Shown: positions 2,792 through 39,997 of the stretch, in pieces
How positions within the stretch are numbered: position 1 is the stretch's first letter
Layout of the letters: the number at the start of each line of letters is the position of its first letter
DNA from: a virus
IMG/VR virus record: IMGVR_UViG_3300042352_000239
Coordinates: 1 to 39,997 of that record
Strand: one strand, 5' to 3'
Length of the DNA stretch: 39,997 nucleotides
Notes under the pieces: generated by a model
What the model saw: the letters and a program-made list of their open reading frames with translations, nothing else
The model's database searches: none
What the model was told of the DNA's origin: nothing
Made by a program: the position numbers and the translations under genes

Positions 2792-2844
2792 TTTTCACTT
2801 CCTTCCGTTGAACGCATTTTACGTCCAAACCCCTTCAATCGTCA

Positions 2845-2997
2845 ATCACCTAAAAAGGCCCTTGGTGTGGATCACCTACTTTCACCTACCCTATAGGGTT
2901 TAGGTGAAAATAGGTGATGACTTTCCACACCTTTACCACGCTATGTGGATAACTTTCACCTGATCACCTTAGGTGAAATTAGGTGAAAATAGGTGAT
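2845..2997. repeat. Iteron array with DnaA boxes: candidate phage replication origin
   Basis: Ten copies of AGGTGA/TCACCT lie at 2846, 2872, 2882, 2902, 2912, 2956, 2964, 2971, 2981 and 2991. Many are exactly 10 bp apart (2902/2912; 2971/2981/2991), one helical turn. Two 18-bp arms (2871-2888 and 2901-2918, one mismatch) form an inverted repeat around CCCTATAGGG (2889-2898). A perfect DnaA box TGTGGATAA lies at 2944-2952, an 8/9 match at 2866-2874 and a 7/9 match at 2921-2929. The array fills the gap between the 86-aa and 65-aa genes and runs into the former's 3' end. It could instead be an operator array. Confidence 0.7.
2944..2952 (-). promoter_or_regulatory. Perfect DnaA box inside the iteron array
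   Basis: The minus strand reads TTATCCACA, the consensus DnaA box. It is embedded between the two iteron clusters. The phage encodes a protein made only of a DnaA-type DNA-binding domain (5276-5620), so either that protein or host DnaA could bind here. Confidence 0.65.
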
Positions 2998-3229
2998 GAA
3001 CTGAAATCCATGTATTATCAACGACTTGATAGCAAATATCACGCTTCCCATGCGCATAGACATCAATTTGCTCAACATCCGGTGCAAAAACCTTGGTGAA
3101 ATCGATTGTGCCTCGCATATCAGGCGCATTTTGCTCTGCTAGGTGATAGGTGATGTGTTTAGGTGATGTGATTTTGATACAAATCACATGGCAACCCATG
3201 CTTTCAATCCATGTCCCGTCATCAATCAT
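2969..3229 (-). CDS. Hypothetical protein, 86 aa, overlapping the origin array
   Basis: I start it at the ATG at 3229, which has AGGAGG upstream and overlaps the stop of the Toprim-helicase by 8 bp; an ATG six codons earlier lacks such a site. It is a small beta-rich protein with no recognised family (GCHVICIKITSPKHITYHL; DVYAHGKRDICYQVV). The last nine codons are made of iteron sequence (HHLFSPNFT), and three more AGGTGAT copies lie at 3141-3167 within the gene. Coupling to the helicase suggests a replication accessory role, which is inference. Confidence 0.65.
   Translation of the reverse strand: MIDDGTWIESMGCHVICIKITSPKHITYHLAEQNAPDMRGTIDFTKVFAPDVEQIDVYAHGKRDICYQVVDNTWISVHHLFSPNFT
3141..3167. 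repeat. Second iteron cluster inside the 86-aa gene
   Basis: Three copies of AGGTGAT start at 3141, 3148 and 3161, in the same orientation as those at 2971-2997. They match the main array 144 bp away and may be a second contact patch for the same protein. Confidence 0.6.
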
Positions 3230-5279
3230 ATTTGCCTCCTCCTTCATTTTTGACCATCATCCAAATCCCGCTGTGAGGCTCTCCGATGATCCTCCAGCCA
3301 TGCTCAAACGGTTCGATAATATTAGCGGTCAGCATAGGCAGGATCAGCCCGTCCTTTCTGGATGAGTCCAGCTTGTTACGGATGGTGGTTTCTTTCCAGT
3401 CAGCATTGCCCGCGAGAAAGTCTTTGAAGCCCGATCTAGATAGATAGGGATGCCCATCGCGCACCTCCTGTCCAGTCATGTCCCAAGCCCTTCGCATCAG
3501 CCTGAGGTTCTCATCATGTTTACTAGGCTTCTTTCTAGGCTGTTCAGCGGCGGCCTCCTTATCCTCGACGGCAACGCATGTCGTAGCTGGTTTACCAAAC
3601 TTGGTCTGGCCCATCTCAACCGTTTCCAGCTTGAAATAAATTATGTCGCCCTTGGAAGGTAATTCTCTCTGCTTTGTGACCTCGGCAGACCTTATGCCTC
3701 CCTTTTCCGAAATCTCGATCTCGGTATCAATATGCGCCCTGATCCCAGACCAGCCGCGAGCGCCTTTGGCAGCATCTTTACCATTGTGGTGAATAATGAT
3801 CATTGTAGCGCCTGTAGCGAGGCTCACATGCTCAAACCTAGCCATGACAGGCCCCATGTCCTCGCCGCTATTCTCATTGGCCCCAGCGGACATTCTGGCG
3901 AGGGTATCGCCTATGACGGCACCGCACTTTTTGCCCCGCTCTCGCTCGATCTCCTTGATGGCCTCGATTACGTCGAACGAGTCGCCCTCATTGGAGTAGA
4001 AATTTAACGGTACTGGCACGACAGCCACATTTTCGAGATCAACGCCATAATATGCCTTGATGGCTTGCAGACGAGTTTTGATGCTGCCGGGGGCCTCACA
4101 AGCCAGATAGACCACAAGCCCTTCCTCGACCTGCCTGCCGCAGAATGGCTGGCCGGTGGCAATTGATGCCGCCAAGGACAATGCCCAGAAGGTTTTGCCT
4201 GAGTTGGAGTCACCATAGATCACTGCGGTCGATCCAGCCACAAGCAGGCCCTCTACCAATTCATCTGGTGGCTCATAATCTTGCCCAAGTTCGTTACCGA
4301 AGACGATCTTTAGCTTCTTGACGATCTCTTGGCCGCTAGGTGGCTCAAGCAAGATTTTGAGGTTGCCGCCCTCTGCCACATAGTCATTGGCATCCCCTAG
4401 GGACGGCGGCATCACCACCCTTGCTCCATATTTGGCCGACGCCTGATCGGCATATTTCTGGCCGGTCCCAGAGGCATCATTGTCAGCCACAATCACAATG
4501 TCCTGCGAAGCCCCATATTTCTCTCGGATCGTGCCGGTGACTGGGACAAGGTTCGAAGCTGAATAGGCCACGATGCATGGCCGGTTGGTCACCTCGTTGA
4601 TCGTTGCGGCAGTGGCGAAACCCTCGGCCACGAAGATCGTGCCAGCCTCATCGAGCGTTCCGACCATCCAGAAGCATCCGCCGGTCTGTCCGCCGGAATG
4701 ATAAAGTTTGCCCCCTTCGGCATCAATATACTGAAGCGAGGCCAGTTTACCGTCCGGTGTGTAAAGAGGGAGCATCAAGCGACCGTCGCCGGTCATTCTG
4801 GCACCGTGCAGGCCGATCCCCTTTCGAGCCAGATATGGATGCTCCGGCGTTGCCAACATGCCATCTGACCATATCTTCTCGACAGTGTCCGAAGCCATGT
4901 CACGGGTCCGCTTCAGATCGGCGTCCCTGATGGTCCGAGCCTCGGCCAATCGGCGGGCATTCACCATCTTTTCACTGTCAGTCAGGGTCCGACCTATGTC
5001 GGCGCAGAAGGTGACTTCGACCCCAGCCCGCCAGCAGCCAAAGCGGCCAGACGGGATACCGTCCGAAAAGACCACATACCAACCCGGCTTATCGTGACCG
5101 GCCTTACCTTTCGTGCCGGAATTAAAGCGATGCAGCTTCCCATCGAACAAAATTTCGTTGGGTGGTGAGAGGCCAGCCGACAGCATGGCATCCCTTAGCT
5201 GCGTCTCTGGCGAATCGGGTTTAATCTCTTTTGGGGGCGACCAAGGCCCCCCGAAGACATTCGATAGGTTTCCGCTCAT
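3222..5279 (-). CDS. Toprim primase-like / RepA-type helicase fusion
   Basis: The 685-aa protein combines two replication modules. Residues about 150-310 are a Toprim domain: E219 in IFVAEGFATA and the D266/D268 pair in VIVADNDASG, the acidic metal site of DnaG-type primases. Residues about 340-560 are an AAA_25/RepA-like hexameric helicase ATPase: Walker A GDSNSGKT (356-363), Walker B AVIGDTL (454-460) and MIIIHHNGK (493-501). A winged-helix-like tail covers roughly 590-665. No zinc-binding N-terminus is obvious. It probably unwinds and primes at the phage origin. Its ATG overlaps the DnaA-IV gene stop as ATGA and its 3' end overlaps the 86-aa gene, just before the iteron array. Confidence 0.85.
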   Translation of the reverse strand: MSGNLSNVFGGPWSPPKEIKPDSPETQLRDAMLSAGLSPPNEILFDGKLHRFNSGTKGKAGHDKPGWYVVFSDGIPSGRFGCWRAGVEVTFCADIGRTLTDSEKMVNARRLAEARTIRDADLKRTRDMASDTVEKIWSDGMLATPEHPYLARKGIGLHGARMTGDGRLMLPLYTPDGKLASLQYIDAEGGKLYHSGGQTGGCFWMVGTLDEAGTIFVAEGFATAATINEVTNRPCIVAYSASNLVPVTGTIREKYGASQDIVIVADNDASGTGQKYADQASAKYGARVVMPPSLGDANDYVAEGGNLKILLEPPSGQEIVKKLKIVFGNELGQDYEPPDELVEGLLVAGSTAVIYGDSNSGKTFWALSLAASIATGQPFCGRQVEEGLVVYLACEAPGSIKTRLQAIKAYYGVDLENVAVVPVPLNFYSNEGDSFDVIEAIKEIERERGKKCGAVIGDTLARMSAGANENSGEDMGPVMARFEHVSLATGATMIIIHHNGKDAAKGARGWSGIRAHIDTEIEISEKGGIRSAEVTKQRELPSKGDIIYFKLETVEMGQTKFGKPATTCVAVEDKEAAAEQPRKKPSKHDENLRLMRRAWDMTGQEVRDGHPYLSRSGFKDFLAGNADWKETTIRNKLDSSRKDGLILPMLTANIIEPFEHGWRIIGEPHSGIWMMVKNEGGGKYD

Positions 5280-5963: not shown

Positions 5964-6079
5964 ATTATTTCCTTCCTGCTAAAATTCGCTTTTGCGCTTT
6001 ACAATGGGTATTTTAATCCGTAAAGCAGTTTTTACACACCGACCGGATAGTCCGACTGGTGTGATGCAGGAGAGCCATT
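5964..6079. promoter_or_regulatory. Divergent early control region with inverted repeats
   Basis: This 116-bp gap separates leftward and rightward early units. GCTTTAC (5996-6002) and GTAAAGC (6020-6026) form an inverted repeat with 17 bp between, and a further TTTTTAC lies at 6029-6035, all plausible operator half-sites. TTTAC(A/G)...TAAAGC 17 bp apart reads as a weak -35/-10 pair on both strands. A second inverted repeat (CACACC 6035-6040 with GGTGTG 6058-6063, inner CGGA-TAG-TCCG) lies just upstream of the Sak4-like ribosome site. Promoter positions are inferred. Confidence 0.55.
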
Positions 6080-39871: not shown

Positions 39872-39997
39872 CCATGAATTACCCCCTAGCCGGGGGCGGC
39901 CAGAAGAACCTAGTCGATAGGGCCAGAACCGGCCCTAGGGCCGCGCCACAAGCCCGCACAGAGACGAAACAAGCTCGCCCCTAGCCCTATCCCATTT
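39872..39997. repeat. 126-bp direct repeat at both contig ends (right copy)
   Basis: This is the right-hand copy of bases 2-127. Together with 39668-39871 it forms the non-coding stretch between the terminase genes and the left unit's terminator on the circular map. Confidence 0.9.

Follow-up and report, generated by a model that had tools for sequence, protein, structure and literature searches.

What is the function of the dense cluster of AGGTGA/TCACCT repeats near 2.9 kb in the viral record IMGVR_UViG_3300042352_000239, and which protein reads them? The stretch analyzed (the window, 39,997 nucleotides) represents a circle of ~39,870 bases with redundant ends, in which bases 2-127 and 39872-39997 form an identical 126-base direct repeat with a one-base offset. 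An earlier note on this DNA had interpreted the cluster as an iteron-type replication origin and had suggested a phage DnaA domain IV protein as one of its binders. The first part of that interpretation held up on position, layout and covariation of the repeat word in relatives, whereas the second found no support. We estimate at roughly 80% the probability that the array is a phage replication origin at which the phage's own primase-helicase would dock through a C-terminal winged helix, load, unwind and prime.

The repeat array and the genes beside it

Thirteen exact copies of AGGTGA/TCACCT were found in the 2845-3167 region, ten of them within 2846-2996. All are where the earlier note had placed them, including those whose starts follow one another at exact 10-bp steps (2872/2882, 2902/2912 and 2971/2981/2991). 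The whole window holds 30 copies, compared with 14.0 +/- 3.4 after shuffling, and none of 100 shuffles reached 30. The 18-bp inverted repeat, described as near-perfect, was confirmed as well: its arms (2871-2888 and 2901-2918) are 94% complementary and flank CCCTATAGGG at 2889-2898. The three outlying copies may be incidental, because they encode part of the conserved TYHLA motif in a real gene (Table 1).

Table 1. Features of the window in and around the repeat array
Feature	Coordinates	Strand	Remarks
Promoter-like sequence	2816..2845	-	Abuts the array, directed at the next genes; identified solely by consensus (10/12 bases)
Core iteron array, ten AGGTGA/TCACCT copies	2846..2996		Starts 2846, 2872, 2882, 2902, 2912, 2956, 2964, 2971, 2981, 2991; layout common to relatives
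Palindromic half of array	2871..2918		Two inverted copies, CCCTATAGGG core, two direct copies; counterpart in most relatives
Perfect DnaA box, TTATCCACA	2944..2952	-	Between the array halves; orientation as in relatives
Second half of array	2956..2996		On the + strand, two inverted copies precede three direct ones; read in helicase orientation, three precede two; steps of 7-10 bp
92-codon gene	2969..3247	-	Between helicase and array; homologs in L005 and L008; final codons overlap the array
Three outlying AGGTGA/TCACCT copies	3141..3166		Inside the 92-codon gene, coding for part of the TYHLA motif
Toprim primase / RepA-type helicase with C-terminal winged helix	3222..5279	-	Proposed self-loading initiator; Pfam Toprim_3 and AAA_25
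C-terminal winged-helix domain	3225..3527	-	aa 585-685; proposed repeat reader
Predicted recognition helix H3	3369..3392	-	aa 630-637
DnaA domain IV-like protein, 114 aa	5276..5620	-	Pfam Bac_DnaA_C, 3e-19; repeat word not tracked

Both genes said to lie just upstream in transcription, encoding a DnaA domain IV protein and a Toprim/RecA-type helicase, were verified by their Pfam matches. By sequence profile, the helicase half of the latter protein matches RSF1010 RepA (PDB 1g8y, E 1.5e-13), and its fold resembles those of T7 gp4 and RepA; Pfam returned no P4/D5-type family and no DUF927 or D5_N/Primase_Cterm match. AlphaFold models aa 587-678 as a winged helix, both alone (pLDDT 89) and within the full protein. 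Pfam and PDB sequence searches with this domain gave nothing useful, and its structural neighbors in Foldseek and VIA were generic winged helices (best Z 6.8, linker histone), so we claim no specific structural relative. A Sak4-like annealing gene faces the helicase gene across the gap.

Two other stretches of the window are also repetitive. Positions 1524-1668, which are gene-poor, contain two pairs of 31-bp tandem repeats (ACCCCCTCCCGGTTTATGGAGCAAAA... and CCCCTTGGCTATTTCTCAAGCAAAATTTTAG), and positions 1-240, near the end of the record, are rich in CCCTA/GCCCCTA-like words.

The cumulative GC-skew minimum had been proposed as a test, with the expectation that it would lie at the array; the detrended minimum is instead at 6044 (6.04 kb), and the curve does not turn at 2.9 kb, a point against an origin here. 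Because this minimum sits between divergent operons, the skew reports transcription layout as much as replication, and we did not use it as origin evidence. A+T content peaks at 68% in 50 bp (window overall 48%), which is no strong AT-rich unwinding region and weighs somewhat against the origin reading. The perfect DnaA box is present as claimed, but one near match was found in the region rather than two (TGATCCACA at 2866-2874, with a single mismatch), and these two boxes do not amount to a DnaA-box cluster of the kind seen in oriC-like origins.

Arrays with other words in related phages

A scan of viral contigs with the window's helicase produced 80 loci at 62-99% identity, out of at least 599 relatives. 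In almost all of the 80, hexamers are densely arrayed just beyond the 3' end of the helicase gene, the word being mostly AGGGGC rather than AGGTGA. With additional scans seeded by PB15, CGphi29 and L006, we obtained 232 loci with a complete helicase and sufficient downstream sequence. In 173 of these 232 loci, the 450 bp that follow the helicase gene contain 6-13 copies of one hexamer; the set includes many near-duplicates and collapses at 88% identity to 66 representatives. Shuffled sequences had maxima of nearly always 4-5 copies, and upstream sequence mostly 3-4. Thus, the search of related phages that the earlier note had called for finds the array at the same place, mostly with other words; the accompanying remark that such an arrangement is less usual in a phage has to be reversed, since the array is the rule for this Toprim/RepA-type helicase family.

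The arrays share one layout. A block in which inverted copies precede direct ones is joined by a linker to a second block, whose palindromic core (frequently CTATAG) is preceded by two inverted copies and followed by two direct ones. The words include AGGGGC, AGGTGA, GGTACA, GGTAAC, GGGACA, TGGACA, GGTACC, GGTACT, CGCAAC, GGTTCA, GGTCAC and CGTACC. Cultured marine phages are represented by Salicola CGphi29 (GGGACA), Alteromonas PB15 and XX1924 (GGTTCA), Idiomarinaceae 1N2-2 (GGTACA) and the Roseobacter phages CRP-406 (CTGGAA) and CRP-821 (GTATAA). Bacterial contigs and prophages of several phyla have the array too, including beside RepA-type helicases that match in the helicase half only. It is absent directly 3' of the RepA-helicase gene in Caulobacter GB2A, Mycobacterium Dove and ct76p945.

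In the phage isolate ctyzp037 (L316, 4601-4900), a nine-copy GGGACA array does not follow the 3' end of the RepA gene directly but lies ~1.5 kb away, and in L003 five GCCCTA copies are found ~3.4 kb beyond the helicase. A GGGGGCAAAA-like element, possibly a priming or opening site, is found near mid-array 3' of the helicase: of 28 representatives with a word unrelated to it, 16 (e.g. L159, L167 and L178) have it in forward and 2 in reverse orientation.

The symmetric arms allow long potential hairpins in most relatives, and the inverted halves could accordingly be read as RNA or single-stranded DNA hairpins (a terminator, an attenuator or a priming hairpin) with the repeats as a by-product of symmetry. 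We give this explanation very little credence: the same word is kept in the non-palindromic half and in the direct 10-bp steps, where a hairpin would not need it, and a scan reported no terminator-like site within 2846-2996. We also considered a TIGR array, because CGphi29 carries a TIGR-Tas locus. In TIGR (Tas) arrays, which lie next to a Nop-domain gene, edge repeats and loop repeats of 8-12 nt alternate, with spacers of ~9 nt. The window's array does not match that plan: it consists of a single hexamer in either orientation, at steps of 7-10 bp inside each cluster. A separate repetitive, gene-free stretch of CGphi29 (L083, 6602-7410) is possibly that phage's TIGR array.

Candidate readers of the repeat word

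Although the word differs among phages, it is altered in every copy of a given array; therefore, something in trans must read it. We propose that the reader is the C-terminal winged helix of the helicase. This domain varies more than any other part of the protein, whereas the core is well conserved even between phages whose words differ strongly. With words assigned by hand, and with register shifts by one or two bases, partial Mantel correlations between protein distance and word distance, given core distance, were calculated for 134 segments of 20 residues. The correlation peaks within aa 616-655, at 0.42 for all 69 sequences and at 0.33 when the CCCCT group is left out (42 sequences); permutation, which leaves shared ancestry in, gave maxima of 0.12 and 0.18, respectively. 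This peak surrounds the predicted recognition helix. Within the CCCCT group alone (27 sequences), segments in 441-465 rank first, followed by segments in 586-640, including 611-640.

Two natural chimeras agree with the winged helix as the putative reader. L144 joins a GG-type core and primase to a winged helix whose closest counterparts are of the GCCCCT type; its word is TCCCCT. In L006, the core is nearest that of L005 (80%, GCCCCT), but the winged helix is nearest the window's, and the word is TCACCT, as in the window. Linkage of the array to the 3' end of the helicase gene (hitch-hiking) contributes to the correlation between word and protein; that linkage alone produces it is argued against by the drop in signal toward the very end of the protein, which is weaker at 656-685 than at 621-650. 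Among individual residues, K636 and R641 occur with CCCCT-type words, and a tyrosine near 636 accompanies nearly all words containing AAC. These pairings are suggestive of a recognition code, but single-column signals in the 42-sequence set are too weak for us to propose a single-residue code.

The primase and helicase halves of the protein also differ in how they relate the phages to one another. Word correlation was 0.2-0.4 for the primase (residues 1-320), as against r ~0.75-0.8 for the helicase half (325-600), which suggests recombination between the two halves.

The promoter-like sequence that abuts the array at 2845-2816, and the small HTH genes often found directly upstream of the helicase, raise the alternative of an operator array, in which the repeats would bind a phage regulator, or the helicase as a repressor, and control the downstream genes or the helicase operon without acting as an origin. 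However, the word is tracked by the helicase C-terminus and not by the HTH genes: 30 related HTH genes pair with at least eight words and, more generally, a single word can occur beside many kinds of upstream gene, and a single kind of gene beside many words. Moreover, the array persists while the genes downstream of it vary among phages. We thus regard a pure operator as unlikely, whereas a dual role as operator and origin is possible.

The DnaA domain IV protein is not supported as a reader of the repeats either. In L006, TCACCT goes with an upstream gene unrelated to the window's, and the word beside the DnaA-IV-like gene of L133 is GGGACA, so that such genes occur with two unrelated words and the window's word occurs without such a gene. 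The DnaA box itself is a real but optional part of the locus, because TTATNCACA is enriched 3' of the helicase (13/57 representatives, 12 forward and 1 reverse) relative to upstream sequence (1/52) and gene controls (0). Host DnaA or the phage DnaA-IV protein could in principle be the main initiator at this box, with the repeats as accessories, and the box lies within the array, in the same orientation in several relatives. Yet there is a single perfect box in the window and none in about three quarters of the array-bearing representatives, and we consider a DnaA-type origin quite improbable. As a partner at the box, host DnaA is likelier than the phage DnaA-IV protein, because a DnaA-IV gene is missing from most of these phages; the phage protein may nevertheless act there.

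A proposed origin mechanism and its known counterparts

The origin reading is strongly supported by the conserved position and layout of the array and by covariation of its word in relatives. We infer that replication starts at the array through binding, ring assembly, opening and priming. In this scheme, the winged helix of the Toprim/RepA-type primase-helicase would bind, in phase, to the AGGTGA copies that flank the CCCTATAGGG palindrome on either side, and the repeat-bound winged helices would allow helicase rings to be assembled at the array. The helicase domain would then open the duplex and, after opening, the Toprim domain would prime, so that a single polypeptide would recognize the origin, load onto it, unwind it and prime synthesis. 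At the single DnaA box, assistance could come from host DnaA or from the phage DnaA-IV protein.

More tentatively, and with somewhat more doubt than confidence, we suggest a widespread class of phage origins in which a RepA-type primase-helicase brings its own reader, and in which the reader helix and the six-base word have repeatedly been rewritten together under selection, for example for escape from origin-directed interference or from cross-talk between co-infecting elements. If this is true, the family is a natural dataset for reading the recognition code of winged helices. The origins of environmental tailed phages are mostly unknown, and the rule to look directly 3' of the Toprim/RepA helicase locates a candidate in hundreds of uncultured phages and prophages. 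The analysis also narrows the likely reader to a single helix and yields dozens of pairs of reader and matching word, which makes it testable how initiators shift their DNA specificity yet keep their function, and whether targeting drives the diversity of origin words.

Literature searches of open-licence papers found no published description of arrays beside this helicase family, and the pairing of a Toprim primase/RepA-type helicase fusion with repeat words that are interchangeable and number in the dozens is apparently undescribed in the literature searched. Its separate elements have counterparts. The RSF1010 origin has iterons, and its binder RepC, helicase RepA and primase RepB are three proteins. 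The helicase half of the window's protein is a homolog of that hexameric RepA by sequence and fold, but the three roles appear to be combined in a single polypeptide here. The alpha protein of phage P4 is a fusion of primase, helicase and origin-binding domain that acts on short repeats. The window's protein is likewise a fusion of primase, helicase and (proposed) origin-binding parts, but it is built from Toprim_3 and AAA_25, with no P4/D5-type family.

Geminiviruses are single-stranded DNA plant viruses with a rolling-circle Rep. As described in PMC12548392, their iterons are five to six bases long, differ between close relatives and are read by the cognate Rep; short iterons that vary between relatives are thus common to both groups. 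In the PLE satellites of Vibrio cholerae, the origin and the DNA-binding domain of RepA covary and have been swapped more than once; the authors attribute this to a phage nuclease whose specificity imitates that of the initiator (PMC8263062). PLE RepA is a RepA_N initiator without helicase or primase and has ~30-bp iterons in few variants, in contrast to the dozens of words in the present family. By analogy, similar nuclease pressure is a possible reason for the diversity of words here.

Staphylococcal elements resemble the locus in arrangement. According to the account in PMC7581432 of Ubeda et al. 2007, the C-terminal domain of SaPI Rep recognizes iterons directly downstream of its own gene, and SCCmec Cch2 binds repeats in the same position (PMC7581432). 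The present arrays are similarly placed directly 3' of a putative initiator helicase gene, with one small gene intervening in the window. The proteins differ, in that SaPI Rep and Cch2 belong to DUF927 or D5_N/Primase_Cterm families and the window's helicase is RepA/RecA-like with a fused Toprim primase, as do the carriers, which are staphylococcal islands and cassettes in one case and tailed phages and prophages in the other. The mechanism proposed here is thus one already known: an iteron origin read by the C-terminus of the initiator helicase.
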